Below, one piece after another: positions 5,466-11,913 of a stretch of 44,191 nt of DNA (positions within the stretch are counted from its first letter, which is position 1; every line of letters begins with the position of its first letter). The DNA is from Methanomassiliicoccales archaeon (GTDB lineage Archaea > Thermoplasmatota > Thermoplasmata > Methanomassiliicoccales > UBA472): the NCBI GenBank assembly GCA_036504055.1, contig DASXVU010000021.1, positions 1-44,191 of the forward strand. The letters are read 5' to 3'. The notes below the pieces were generated by a model, which did no database searches, was not told the origin of the DNA, and was given only the letters and a program-made list of their open reading frames with translations. The translations under genes and the position numbers were made by a program.

Positions 5466-6218
5466 TCAGCTGTCGATCCCGCACGTCATTCCGTTCATCT
5501 CATTGGCGTTCCAATCCTTCACTCTTTTATGGTGCTTTCCGTCCGGATCGCTCTCGGTCTGGATTGCTTTCTCGAACCTCACCTTGACCATCAGCCTCTC
5601 GACCATCTCCACAACCTCAGCTCCATTTGGACAATATACATCTCCGCCAAAACTGTCCACCCATCTGTGGTTGCAGGGAGCGCCTCCGAAAATGGTGCTG
5701 GTTCGCAGACCCTCATCCCTGATGCCCTCAGCGATCGCCCTCTGTCCCCATAGGGTCGTCGTCATCAGCGCAGAGGCTCCTACCATGTCAGCGTCCGATT
5801 TCTTACACTCATCAACGAACCGCTTGATCGCTACGTCCCTTCCCAGGTCGATGACCCGATAGCCAGCGCCACGAAGCATGGCGCCGATGACGTTCTTTCC
5901 GATCTCATGTACGTCCCCTAGGACGGTGCCTAGGACGACCGTTCCCTTCCCAGCGACACTATTGGCACCCATTACCGGATCCAATATCTTCATCGCCTCT
6001 TCCATGGCGTTCGATGCCGCCAGTAACTGAGGCAGGAAGATGACCGCTTCGTCAAACCTCTGGCTTATGCTGGTCATGCCTTTGCTAAGCCCCGCCTCGA
6101 TCGCTTCCGAAGGAGAGATGCCAAGGTCCAACGCTTCTCGTGCTGAGCTCCTGGCCAACTCCACATCCCAGCATTCGACCGATCGTTTAAGATTTTCGAG
6201 TACTTCTTTCTTGATCAT
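5466..6218 (-). CDS. Orphan methylamine-type corrinoid protein
   Basis: This is a third MtmC/MtbC/MttC-family corrinoid protein, 250 residues from the chosen ATG at 6216-6218. An upstream in-frame GTG at 6230 is possible, but GAGGTGG overlaps it and fits better as a ribosome binding site for the ATG. The B12 motif GDVHEIG is present (Asp102/His104), with GASALMTTT and FGGAPC. Unlike the other two copies it has about 35 extra C-terminal residues, including a charged stretch (DPDGKHHKRVKDW) and a terminal Cys. No methyltransferase gene is adjacent, so its partner (MtmB, MtbB, MttB or another) cannot be told. Its neighbour is the DUF1638 gene. Confidence 0.8.
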   Translation of the reverse strand: MIKKEVLENLKRSVECWDVELARSSAREALDLGISPSEAIEAGLSKGMTSISQRFDEAVIFLPQLLAASNAMEEAMKILDPVMGANSVAGKGTVVLGTVLGDVHEIGKNVIGAMLRGAGYRVIDLGRDVAIKRFVDECKKSDADMVGASALMTTTLWGQRAIAEGIRDEGLRTSTIFGGAPCNHRWVDSFGGDVYCPNGAEVVEMVERLMVKVRFEKAIQTESDPDGKHHKRVKDWNANEMNGMTCGIDS

Positions 6219-6334
6219 CACGGAATCCACCTCATCACGTGCTTCCGACCCTTACAGAATGGCACATACCATCTGCCAGCTGATTGGAGAGATATGAATT
6301 GAAAAAGGGAAAGGGTTTGATTAGGGGGTCAGAG

Positions 6335-6670
6335 TTACTTCGAGGTCACCTCGCCTGTGCGGATCCTGATCACCTTCTCGACCGCGCTTATGAAGATCTT
6401 TCCGTCGCCGATATCTCCGGTCCTGGCTGAGGCGACCAGCGCATCGACCACCTTCTGGCAGTCGGCATCGTCCACGACGATCTCGATCTTCGTCTTTGGA
6501 AGCAGGTCGACCCGGTACTTGCCCGCCCTGTGGGTGAACTCCAGGCCTTTCTGCTCTCCCCGGCCATGCACCTCGTAAACGGTGATTCCGAGGACACCGA
6601 TCTGTTCCAGTGCGGTTTTTACGGGATTGAGCTTCTCGCTCCTGATTATTGCTTCGATCTTCTTCGACAT
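6335..6670 (-). CDS. glnK: P-II nitrogen regulatory protein GlnK
   Basis: This 111-residue P-II protein binds ATP/ADP and 2-oxoglutarate and blocks the cognate AmtB channel when nitrogen is plentiful. It begins MSKKIEAIIRSEKL and carries the T-loop segment around residues 37-55, ending in YRVDLLPKTKIEIVV. The tyrosine equivalent to Tyr51 of enterobacterial GlnK is kept, but the preceding Tyr46 equivalent is His. The B-loop region GDIGDGKIF and the C-terminal EKVIRIRTGE segment are present. It lies 13 bases downstream of amtB on the same strand, the standard amtB-glnK arrangement, so both are likely co-transcribed under nitrogen control. Confidence 0.93.
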   Translation of the reverse strand: MSKKIEAIIRSEKLNPVKTALEQIGVLGITVYEVHGRGEQKGLEFTHRAGKYRVDLLPKTKIEIVVDDADCQKVVDALVASARTGDIGDGKIFISAVEKVIRIRTGEVTSK

Positions 6671-6683
6671 TTCAGGTCACCTC

Positions 6684-8021
6684 TCAGCTGTAAGCGCTCT
6701 CCCCGTGCTGGATGATATCAGCACCGATACGTTCCTCGTCCTTTGTCATCCTCAGCGGGGTTATCTTGCCCAGCACCTTCAGTACGATGAATGTCACACC
6801 GAACGCGAACGCCCATACCGTTGCCACAGCGATCAGCTGATAGCCCAGCAGGGTGAAGCTCCCGCCAATGAACAGGCCCTGCGTAGATTCGGATACCAAT
6901 CCGTTCACTGAGTGGGAAGCGAACAGGCCAGTAGCGATGGCACCGAAGGTACCGCCGATACCGTGAACGCCCCATACATCAAGCGAATCGTCGAATCCAA
7001 GGCGCTTTCTCGCCAGAATGCCACCATAGCAGATCACACCCGCGCCGATACCGATGACAATGGCGCCAGTTGTGTCAACGTAACCGGATGCCGGTGTGAT
7101 GGCGACCAGGCCTGCTATGCCACCAGATATCAGACCAAGTACGCCCGGTCTGCCCTGGTGCAACCAGGATACAATACCCCATGTTATGGCAGCCAATGCT
7201 GCTGCGATGTGGGTATTGGCGAATGCCTGAGACGCGATACCGTTGGAAGCCAAAGCGCTGCCGCCATTGAACCCGAACCAGCCCATCCACAGAAGGCCGC
7301 CACCTAGGACCACCATCGGGATGTTGTGCGGGTGTTCGCCATTGCCTGCCTGGGCTGAGAGTCTCTTGCCAAGGACGATGGCTGCCGCCAATACCGAGAC
7401 ACCTGCGGTGATGTGCACAACTGTACCGCCTGCGAAGTCCAACGCCCCCATCTTCGAGAGCCAGCCGCCGCCCCATACCCAGTGGGCCACCGGTATGTAG
7501 ACAAGGACAGTCCATATGCCTAGGAACACGACCATGGCTTTCAGCTTCATCCGCTCCGCGACACCGCCGATGATCAGAGCAACGGTGATGATGGCGAACA
7601 TCAGCTGATACATCGAGAACAATATCGCTGGAATCGAGACAGCATAATCCGTGTTAGGTAACTGCCCAACGCCATGCAATCCGACGAAGTCAAAGTTACC
7701 TATCAGGTCTGACTTGAACCCGCCGAATGCGAGCGAGTAACCGAACAGGACCCAGATCAGAGTAACCATTCCGGTGATGATTATTGTCTGACCGAGAATG
7801 GAAAGGAAACTTTCCTTCCTCAGCATACCGCCGTAGAAGAAGCCTACAGCGGGTGTCATGATAAACACCAGTGCAGTCGCGACTAACAACCATGCAGTAT
7901 CGCCGCTGTTGATATCGGTAGCCAGCCCGTCCGTTGCCACTGCAGACGTGGACAAGGCCGGCAGTACCATGACCACCAGGGCCAATAACAATCCGATTTT
8001 TATTGCGTTGGACTTTTTCAT
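6684..8021 (-). CDS. amt: Ammonium transporter AmtB
   Basis: This 445-residue Amt/Mep/Rh channel conducts ammonium, and family members also pass methylammonium. The first 30 residues (MKKSNAIKIGLLLALVV...) form a signal-like hydrophobic segment. About eleven membrane helices follow. Pore signatures include VGFFYGGMLR, the first pore histidine in GGTVVHITAG, GFNGGSALA and the second pore histidine in WGVHGIGGTFGA. A GAGGTG ribosome binding site precedes the ATG at 8019-8021. It is paired with glnK. Location within a cluster of monomethylamine genes suggests it handles ammonia released by MtmB, or imports methylammonium itself; the second idea is inference. Confidence 0.95.
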   Translation of the reverse strand: MKKSNAIKIGLLLALVVMVLPALSTSAVATDGLATDINSGDTAWLLVATALVFIMTPAVGFFYGGMLRKESFLSILGQTIIITGMVTLIWVLFGYSLAFGGFKSDLIGNFDFVGLHGVGQLPNTDYAVSIPAILFSMYQLMFAIITVALIIGGVAERMKLKAMVVFLGIWTVLVYIPVAHWVWGGGWLSKMGALDFAGGTVVHITAGVSVLAAAIVLGKRLSAQAGNGEHPHNIPMVVLGGGLLWMGWFGFNGGSALASNGIASQAFANTHIAAALAAITWGIVSWLHQGRPGVLGLISGGIAGLVAITPASGYVDTTGAIVIGIGAGVICYGGILARKRLGFDDSLDVWGVHGIGGTFGAIATGLFASHSVNGLVSESTQGLFIGGSFTLLGYQLIAVATVWAFAFGVTFIVLKVLGKITPLRMTKDEERIGADIIQHGESAYS

Positions 8022-10141: not shown

Positions 10142-11557
10142 TCATCCCAGTGTGTTATATTTATACTGGAAATCGCGCTCCTTGATCAGGTTCTTCAGTT
10201 CTCCATCGGCGATCAGCTTGAACCCGTAACGGATGACGGCCTCATAGAACTCGCAGTAGGGGGATTTGGCCATGATGGTGCCCTTCTCGGCGAACACCTC
10301 TCCCGGGCAGGGTGCGCCGCAAACGTTGCGCAATGCACACGACTGACAGACCGGTATGTTCTCCGCCCTGCGCTCCCTGACCATCCTGAGCCTCTCCGAT
10401 TTCACCGCCTTTTCCACCCCGTTGATCTCGAAGACGCTGTGTGTCTGGAACTTCTCCAGGCCGAGGAACTCGGAACAGGGGTATATGGTGCCGTTCGAAC
10501 TCACCGAGACGAAGCAGCGCGCCCCGCCGCATGGGGTGATGTCACACATCAGCCGACGGCCCATCGGGGCCACTATTCCCAGGATGAGGTTGGAGAAATC
10601 GGCGATGGTGATCCGATGCCCATTCTTGGTGTGGTACACCGCACGGTCGATGGCGCCGATGAAGTTTGGGATCAGGTATTCGTTGGCCGGCCGCAGCTTC
10701 CGGGCCACTTCCTGCGTTCCCCTCACCGGGTTCATCAGGACGCTCGGTACCTTCTTGTCCACCAGGAAATCGATCATCTGGGGCAGCGTATTGACGTTCA
10801 TCGAGCTGATGGTGCAGATGACGCTCATCGCCCGGTATCCGTTAAGGTGTTCGATGGCGTGCACTGCTGAGTCATAGGTGCCACCGCCACCGCGCAAAGG
10901 CCGTATCCGGTCGTTGACCTCGTTGAACGGAGAGTCTAGCGATACGCCCACCGATACCCGGTGGTCCATGAAGAAGTCGGAGGTCTTGTCATCAAGATGG
11001 TATCCGTTGGTCTGTACACCGAAGGAGAAACGATCCGAGAACTCCTCCACCGCTTTCATGATGTTATCCTTGACCAGCATCGGCTCGCTACCATGGAAGA
11101 CGATCACTGGCTTTTTACCGTCCGCATTCCGGGAGACCGATCCGGGATAATTCTCGAAGAAATCATGCAGATTGGTAAGGGCCATGTGGATCTGGGGATA
11201 TGACATATGGCTGGGCTTGGCCCTTAGATCGTCCGGAAGGTAACAGTACTGGCAGTTCGCATTGCATGTCCCTGTCGGATTGAAGTAGACCGCGCTGAAC
11301 CTTTCCTCAGACCGGAACTTTTCCATTTCCTGGGACATCGCCGCGGAATGGAGCCGGTAGTTAGGCAGGACCTCCTCCTCCATGACCTTACCCATGTCCG
11401 CCCTCTTCGGGACCATTGCCCAGAACATGCTTTCGGGTTCGATCAGAACCCAGGAGTTACCTACGTCCATCAGGGATAGTTTAGGTCCCTCGCCGGAGTT
11501 CAGTCTCAATGGCATTATCGACGCGTTTTCCGATTCAGTGGTCGTGGTTGAGTTCAT
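10142..11557 (-). CDS. Radical SAM/SPASM peptide-modifying enzyme (putative RiPP maturase)
   Basis: This 471-residue radical SAM protein carries the CX3CX2C cluster motif at Cys98/Cys102/Cys105 (TCNANCQYCYLP). Its C-terminal SPASM region has many cysteines: CDITPCGGARC, IYPCSEF, CQSCALRNVCGAPC and a final SPYCEF. These would bind auxiliary 4Fe-4S clusters, as in anaerobic sulfatase maturase and in sactipeptide/ranthipeptide enzymes. The start at 11557 follows AGGTG with an 8-base spacer. The longer frame to 11611 would overlap the upstream precursor gene and lacks such a site. The gene lies 25 bases after the 32-codon peptide gene and is separated from it by a hairpin and U8 tract. It resembles methanogen peptide-modifying radical SAM proteins (a Mhun_1560-like family is my guess), and the modification made is unknown. 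Confidence 0.85.
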   Translation of the reverse strand: MNSTTTTESENASIMPLRLNSGEGPKLSLMDVGNSWVLIEPESMFWAMVPKRADMGKVMEEEVLPNYRLHSAAMSQEMEKFRSEERFSAVYFNPTGTCNANCQYCYLPDDLRAKPSHMSYPQIHMALTNLHDFFENYPGSVSRNADGKKPVIVFHGSEPMLVKDNIMKAVEEFSDRFSFGVQTNGYHLDDKTSDFFMDHRVSVGVSLDSPFNEVNDRIRPLRGGGGTYDSAVHAIEHLNGYRAMSVICTISSMNVNTLPQMIDFLVDKKVPSVLMNPVRGTQEVARKLRPANEYLIPNFIGAIDRAVYHTKNGHRITIADFSNLILGIVAPMGRRLMCDITPCGGARCFVSVSSNGTIYPCSEFLGLEKFQTHSVFEINGVEKAVKSERLRMVRERRAENIPVCQSCALRNVCGAPCPGEVFAEKGTIMAKSPYCEFYEAVIRYGFKLIADGELKNLIKERDFQYKYNTLG

Positions 11558-11571
11558 CGTAAGCACCTGGT

Positions 11572-11604
11572 AAAAAAAAGGTTTAGAAGGGGAACTCCCC
11601 TTCT
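11572..11604 (-). terminator. Hairpin plus U8 between precursor peptide and radical SAM genes
   Basis: On the minus-strand transcript AGAAGGGG (11604-11597) pairs with CCCCUUCU (11592-11585) around a four-base loop. It is followed within six bases by eight consecutive U (11579-11572). The hairpin overlaps the last codons and stop of the peptide gene. It has the form of an intrinsic terminator and could give high precursor and low maturase expression by partial readthrough. Archaeal termination depends mainly on the U tract, which is present. Confidence 0.65.
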
Positions 11605-11681
11605 GCCGCATCGTAGATGATGTAGTGGCTCAGTCCGTTGCCATCCACTTTGCAGTCCAGTCTGCACATTATTGCCGACAT
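11583..11681 (-). CDS. 32-residue Cys-containing peptide, putative RiPP precursor
   Basis: This short gene has an ATG at 11679-11681, a TAA at 11583-11585, and a good GGAG ribosome binding site nine bases upstream. The 32-residue product starts MSAIMCRLDCK, with Cys6 and Cys10. It continues through Gly14/Gly16, His19-Tyr20 and Tyr23, and ends in EGEFPF (Phe30, Phe32). It sits immediately upstream of a radical SAM/SPASM gene on the same strand, the classic arrangement for a radical-SAM-modified peptide (RiPP). Thioether formation at the two Cys or aromatic cross-links are possible. No leader/core boundary, protease or exporter can be seen. An alternative is a small protein unrelated to the enzyme. 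Confidence 0.7.
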   Translation of the reverse strand: MSAIMCRLDCKVDGNGLSHYIIYDAAEGEFPF

Positions 11682-11702
11682 TTCTTTCAACTCCTTGCTG
11701 GT

Positions 11703-11721
11703 GTTGGATTATACATCCAAC
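11703..11721 (-). promoter_or_regulatory. Inverted repeat upstream of the precursor peptide
   Basis: GTTGGAT (11703-11709) and ATCCAAC (11715-11721) form a perfect 7-bp inverted repeat with a five-base spacer, 22 bases before the peptide start. TATA-like sequences lie further upstream on the minus strand at about 11727-11737 (GATATTTTTGG) and 11744-11754 (CATATACTAAC). Depending on which is used, the repeat is an operator over the transcript start or a 5' RNA hairpin. The rest of 11722-11913 shows no gene. Confidence 0.45.
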
Positions 11722-11913
11722 TCCAAAAATATCGAAGTCGAGGTTAGTATATGATGCTATCTTTGGATAGATTGGATGGAACAAATCTACCACAATTTGT
11801 CTCCATCATGCAACAAATGACGCAGATCGATTTTCCCATAGGATCTGGAAAAAACCATTTATTGAAATATCATTTATGGCCAGACACAGAAAATGATGGG
11901 AGCGGCAAAATGC

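Follow-up and report, generated by a model that had tools for sequence, protein, structure and literature searches.

The window, as we call the whole 44,191-nucleotide stretch of Methanomassiliicoccales DNA analyzed here, carries a 32-codon open reading frame next to a gene for a radical SAM/SPASM enzyme, which raises the question whether the small frame encodes the peptide modified by the enzyme and what its product would be used for. RiPPs have been studied mostly as antimicrobials, signals, and copper chelators. A sequence-only reading of the locus had proposed a radical SAM RiPP pair whose peptide it did not recognize. Here, we document by computation the pair itself, the conservation of the peptide, and the co-regulation of the locus, and weigh what the mature peptide might do.

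The enzyme belongs to the CbpB family

The enzyme gene, cbpB, lies on the minus strand at 10142–11557 (start of the open reading frame at 11557) and encodes a radical SAM/SPASM peptide maturase of 471 residues that matches TIGR04163 with 493.5 bits over residues 32–456, above the curated cutoff of 375. No other protein of the genome exceeds that cutoff, and apart from TIGR04163 none of the equivalog models compared with CbpB passes its own cutoff. The likeness to Mhun_1560-type enzymes (TIGR04083) raised in the sequence-only reading did not hold up (90.6 bits versus a cutoff of 300), while the CX3CX2C motif and the SPASM cysteines that it had pointed out were confirmed: Cys98/102/105, Cys338/343/361, and Cys404/407/413/417/435 are invariant in 58 homologues. 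The CX3CX2C radical SAM cluster motif (residues 98–105) is encoded at 11243–11266 and the SPASM region from Cys338 to Cys435, with two predicted auxiliary Fe-S clusters, at 10253–10546, both on the minus strand.

An AF2 model of CbpB built from the 58 sequences (pLDDT 90, pTM 0.90) places three strands (residues 28–50) and one long helix (55–83) ahead of the radical SAM core. The RRE is defined as a bbb-aaa winged-helix domain (PMC12710340), and we rejected an RRE in CbpB because the modeled N-terminus is incomplete relative to that fold. Both the fold search (5why, E 1e-20, followed by ChlB and anSME) and the profile search (1.8e-38, against 3.8e-33 for anSME and 3e-26 for ChlB) put CteB first, the SCIFF ranthipeptide maturase of PDB entries 5wgg and 5why that likewise combines radical SAM and SPASM domains. 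CteB makes a single Cys-Thr thioether in its peptide CteA (PMC8326336). CteA and CbpA are both conserved, housekeeping-like peptides; however, CteA has six cysteines and CbpA one conserved cysteine, CteB and CbpB share 18–19% identity, and CbpB lacks the full N-terminal wHTH RRE of CteB. The ranthipeptide maturase PapB (NF047865) is the second-best named family by sequence (127.4 bits), but CbpB falls far under its cutoff of 340 and CbpA lacks the repeated CX3D/E motif. The SPASM enzyme anSME (PDB 4k36–4k39), which acts on Cys or Ser, is similar in fold, yet shares 17% identity with CbpB; no sulfatase lies near cbpB, and the putative substrate of CbpB is a small dedicated peptide. Since anSME and ChlB score near CteB and no equivalog other than CbpB passes, the class of product made by CbpB cannot be read from homology.

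A conserved peptide precedes the enzyme in archaea and bacteria

The peptide gene, cbpA, lies directly upstream of cbpB at 11583–11681 on the same minus strand and encodes the 32-residue precursor MSAIMCRLDCKVDGNGLSHYIIYDAAEGEFPF, with an AGGAG ribosome-binding site (11691–11695, minus strand) 9 nt ahead of its ATG; the frame, the peptide sequence, and the GGAG-type site had been given correctly before. Against TIGR04164 the peptide scores 27.5 bits (E 1.6e-6) and does not reach the curated cutoff of 35. It resembles the CbpA/CbpB family in that its enzyme exceeds the family cutoff, its core (Cys10 together with G16-L17-S18-H19-Y20) matches, and the genes stand in the order cbpA-cbpB, and it differs in its sub-cutoff score, an extra Cys6, and the C-terminal EFPF. 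Judged by its sequence, then, it is a divergent member of TIGR04164, and the peptide that had gone unrecognized belongs to a named but uncharacterized family. CbpA exceeds the cutoff in one of 15 CbpB-bearing related genomes, most of which have a match beside cbpB, so the model appears to be too narrow.

A CbpA frame occurs upstream of CbpB at 78 of the 79 loci surveyed in archaea and bacteria. At the sole exception, L170, the reading frame of cbpA is interrupted immediately ahead of GLTHY (at about 2760, minus strand, upstream of cbpB), by sequencing error or decay. The Cys at position 10, Gly16-Leu17, and His19 (window numbering) are invariant in all 78 peptides, within a core C-x(n)-G-L-[S/T]-H-[Y/F] that the window peptide also displays. 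The residue before the core His is Ser in 44 peptides, Thr in 33, and Ala in one (L032), the residue after it is Tyr in 75 and Phe in three (L171, L179, and L189), the spacing from Cys to His is 8–11, and 69 of the 78 have an Arg three residues ahead of the core Cys. Cys6, which the sequence-only reading had treated as a defining residue along with Cys10, is confined to the Methanomassiliicoccales; the two C-terminal Phe that it had listed are likewise lineage features. A terminal PF is present in 40 of 78 peptides. The shortest archaeal CbpA peptides have 26 residues (for example MAVAFQFECEVGGGLTHYIMGEDSPF), and a 26-residue CbpA, MQAYRYECKAEGGLTHYVALDEETPF, also adjoins CbpB at L160/L206 (G1073).

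Among nine Methanomassiliicoccales, 12 of 23 core codons of cbpA vary synonymously only, with dN of about 0.10 and dS of at least 1.44 (11 of 36 pairs saturated), a pattern indicating that purifying selection acts on the CbpA peptide. The in-frame recurrence at nearly all CbpB loci and the mostly synonymous variation make the small frame more than a chance occurrence. The comparison suggested in the sequence-only reading thus found the frame kept beside orthologous enzymes in the Methanomassiliicoccales, and its central proposal is well supported by the TIGR04163/TIGR04164 matches, the conserved pairing, and the purifying selection: the window almost certainly holds a CbpA/CbpB radical SAM RiPP pair. 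Between the cbpA stop and cbpB lies a T8 run (11565–11580, minus strand), and runs of 4 to 8 T occupy this place at all nine Methanomassiliicoccales loci; it is possible that the T-rich run acts as a partial terminator that yields less cbpB than cbpA transcript.

Within the Methanomassiliicoccales, the window's own order, 10 of 61 genomes encode CbpB (the window's genome counted); outside this order, CbpB turned up in 1 of 293 in a sample of the window's own phylum, in 11 of 23 of the Hydrothermarchaeum phylum, in 40 of 295 of the ANME-1/Archaeoglobi-type phylum, in 25 of 297 of the Desulfobacterota-type phylum, and in 2 of 301 Chloroflexi-type genomes. In the tree, all CbpB of the Methanomassiliicoccales fall in one clade (100/100) neighbored by Hydrothermarchaeum (96/84).

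A candidate palindromic operator links cbpA to B12 and cobalt genes

Upstream of cbpA in the window, 20 nt ahead of its ATG, lies a 21-bp palindrome (11702–11722; AGTTGGATGTATAATCCAACA on the minus strand) that differs at one position from the consensus AGTTGGAT-N5-ATCCAACT. It sits just outside the interval covered by the sequence-only reading (11572–11681), which had not noticed any regulation by B12 or cobalt. The palindrome ends 13–20 nt ahead of the cbpA ATG in nine of nine Methanomassiliicoccales genomes, six of which carry another copy some 72 nt farther upstream, and several of these loci have a TATA-like sequence between the two copies. It is unique within the window, where 0.18 occurrences would be expected at 3 mismatches; when up to 2 mismatches are allowed, 6–19 copies per genome were found in the nine genomes, while the reversed-pattern control gave none in eight genomes and two in one.

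In the window's genome, the palindrome lies ahead of a CbiT-CbiL-CbiF operon (CbiL and CbiF identified by eye), from which a precorrin-2 dehydrogenase gene diverges, and ahead of genes for a BtuF-like binding protein, archaeal CobT, and CobQ, and of cbpA. It also precedes the gene of a methylamine/TMAO-type permease and a gene resembling zinc alcohol dehydrogenases. The sites recorded are C12:47156, C11:3622, C11:12408, C3:67828, C42:3288, and C16:62884 of genome G000 (loci L138, L139, and L157–L159); a palindrome-like match at C3:47928 of G000 was judged to be a chance occurrence. In further genomes, the palindrome precedes genes for CbiM, CobN, CbiC, CobB, a CbiX-like chelatase, BtuC, and an ABC ATPase. 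The 58 open reading frames adjoining palindrome sites include seven CbiT, seven BtuF-like families, six CobT, and six dehydrogenase matches. By hand count, about 33 of 54 site clusters (cbpA excluded) precede a B12 or cobalt gene, and about 40% of operator sites precede genes without an obvious B12 role. We regard the palindrome as a candidate B12/cobalt operator that defines a putative archaeal regulon; our literature search found no published description of it. Within the window, the genes at 5466–8021, named by eye as a corrinoid methyltransferase-type protein (5466–6230), a PII-like regulator (6335–6670), and an ammonium transporter (6684–8021), have no operator copy in front.

Bacterial cbpA follows a cobalamin riboswitch

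A cobalamin riboswitch (RF00174) precedes cbpA on the same strand at 26 of the 29 bacterial loci with upstream DNA (all but L011, L013, and L032), scoring 60–130 bits against a gathering score of 31.5. The next gene is divergent in most of these loci, so that the riboswitch controls cbpAB itself. Known targets of cobalamin riboswitches serve the synthesis or transport of B12 or the transport of cobalt, or are isozymes that work independently of B12 (PMC3766115, PMC545781). The bacterial cbpAB genes resemble these RF00174 regulons in being under direct riboswitch control, but no RiPP is among the gene classes that PMC3766115 lists for them (synthesis, transport of B12 or of cobalt, and isozymes). 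An Rfam search gave no match in the window or at 18 archaeal cbpA loci; the window locus thus departs from its bacterial relatives in standing under a palindromic operator in place of a riboswitch.

A short frame just upstream of an enzyme gene, in a locus that is riboswitch-controlled in bacteria, would also suit a regulatory leader (uORF) for translation of the radical SAM gene, the true substrate then being another protein. We consider this very improbable, as conservation is at the protein level and centers on the Cys, GL, and His, which lie mid-peptide and in its C-terminal half, the frame is retained in archaea without a riboswitch, and the CbpB family falls among peptide maturases.

Archaeal neighbor genes include cobalt and B12 functions

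On one ANME-1 contig, cbpAB is flanked on one side by CbiT, CbiO, CbiQ, CbiM, and an RHH-AIRS protein and on the other by a CobN chelatase, beyond which come another set of CbiMQO genes and an ABC ATPase. At a further ANME-1 locus, genes for CobN, CobB, and CbiT lie within 10 kb. In another archaeon, the gene of a NicO-type Ni/Co transporter is divergent from cbpAB, and the cysteine-rich small domain PF04071, which also occurs in operator-controlled CobQ-type proteins of the Methanomassiliicoccales, adjoins cbpB in two Archaeoglobi-type loci. About ten archaeal genomes have an RHH regulator gene divergent to cbpA. At L199 (3846–4775) its product spans 309 residues and combines an RHH DNA-binding domain with a weak AIRS-like region, and RHH-AIRS-like proteins are likewise divergent to cbpA in L161–L165, L167, L171, L179, and L189 (ANME-1 and other archaea); they are candidate cobalt or B12 sensors. 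The first 70 residues of the ANME-1 regulator matched nothing in nine genomes, a result that by itself shows little, and we set this protein aside as the Methanomassiliicoccales repressor. Two Hydrothermarchaeota-type genomes have a winged-helix regulator with DUF7839 divergent to cbpA (L069, 7918–8724; L194, 8634–9422).

The riboswitch before bacterial cbpA, the palindrome shared with B12 and cobalt genes, and the ANME-1 context together mark a B12/cobalt-regulated RiPP pair, and we consider it very probable that cbpAB belongs to a B12/cobalt regulon. All-against-all clustering of genes within 10 kb at more than 20 loci revealed no conserved partner, protease, or exporter across lineages, so that beyond the cobalt and B12 neighbors of some archaeal loci no adjacent gene supports a route for the product. 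This bears on the view that modified CbpA is a signal or antimicrobial released upon B12 shortage, for instance against corrinoid competitors. Small radical SAM RiPPs often act extracellularly and the distribution is patchy, as the Methanomassiliicoccales counts illustrate; nevertheless, exporter, immunity, and protease genes are not conserved, and the core is near-identical in archaea and bacteria although antagonistic peptides usually diversify, which leaves this role quite unlikely.

Somewhat less unlikely, yet still improbable, is that CbpA gives rise to a small redox or catalytic cofactor, as PqqA does to PQQ, for a B12-independent replacement enzyme. This would explain repression by B12, cobalamin riboswitches being known to repress B12-independent isozymes (PMC545781, PMC3766115), and it would fit a core that is conserved rather than diversifying. 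However, no conserved partner enzyme or peptidase adjoins cbpAB, and the Phe in place of Tyr20 in three peptides makes a tyrosine-quinone cofactor unlikely. Also against it, methylotrophic methanogens are not known to do without corrinoid methyltransferases.

Proposed maturation and role of CbpA

We propose that when B12 (or cobalt) is scarce, a putative repressor would leave the palindrome at 11702–11722 and cbpA-cbpB would be transcribed, together with the corrinoid-uptake and B12-synthesis genes; in bacteria, the cobalamin riboswitch would serve as the equivalent control. CbpB would then make a 5'-deoxyadenosyl radical, abstract hydrogen from some residue within the GL[S/T]H[Y/F] core, and modify the Cys-x(7-10)-His segment that is invariant in CbpA, with the sulfur of Cys10 most likely closing a thioether to the GL[S/T]H[Y/F] stretch. 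The natural Ala and Phe variants beside the core His speak against a need for the Ser hydroxyl or the Tyr phenol, so that the candidate modification sites are Cys10, Leu17, and His19.

A Cys10 thioether into the GLxH region is a tentative assignment by analogy, suggested by CteB being the nearest solved structure, and a single invariant Cys would suit a thioether donor. With regulation and pair unchanged, CbpB might form no thioether and instead introduce a C-C or C-O crosslink at His19 or Leu17, an epimer, or a formylglycine-like oxidation, Cys10 staying a free metal ligand. We take this for a serious possibility, though not the probable outcome: ChlB and anSME match in structure nearly as well as CteB does, and the variable Cys10-His19 spacing would be tolerated by a metal chelate where a fixed crosslink might not allow it, but CteB is the best profile match.

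Mature CbpA would probably offer a Cys sulfur and a His nitrogen to cobalt, or else to a corrinoid, and would help to supply it to cobalamin synthesis or salvage. That the matured peptide binds cobalt is possible rather than probable, and corrinoid handling of another sort is rather doubtful. Taken as a whole, a B12/cobalt-regulated pair whose thioether-bearing peptide aids cobalt or corrinoid supply is the explanation that we favor with modest confidence. More tentatively, mature CbpA may be a dedicated cobalt- or corrinoid-binding metallopeptide produced under B12 limitation, carried by methanogens, ANME, Archaeoglobi, Hydrothermarchaeota, and sulfate-reducer-type bacteria; it would be the first RiPP serving cobalamin metabolism, within a previously undescribed archaeal B12 regulon.

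A literature search combining RiPP, cobalamin riboswitch, and radical SAM found no description of CbpAB function, and among the papers searched none names TIGR04163, TIGR04164, or cobopeptide. The model names "rSAM_cobopep" and "cobo_pep" suggest that the authors of the original target-peptide paper may already have noted a B12 link. As a member of a named, uncharacterized RiPP family, the peptide-enzyme pair is ordinary in kind; the new point is its regulation by B12/cobalt, and control in two domains of life through unrelated regulatory devices is unusual. This link makes the function of CbpAB testable, provides an orphan peptide family with a role that can be put to the test, and brings to light a candidate B12 operator for an archaeal order. 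A widespread and strongly conserved radical SAM peptide with cobalamin-responsive genes in both domains points to an unrecognized step in cobalt/B12 supply; methylotrophic methanogenesis relies on this supply, as does a large part of anaerobic carbon cycling.
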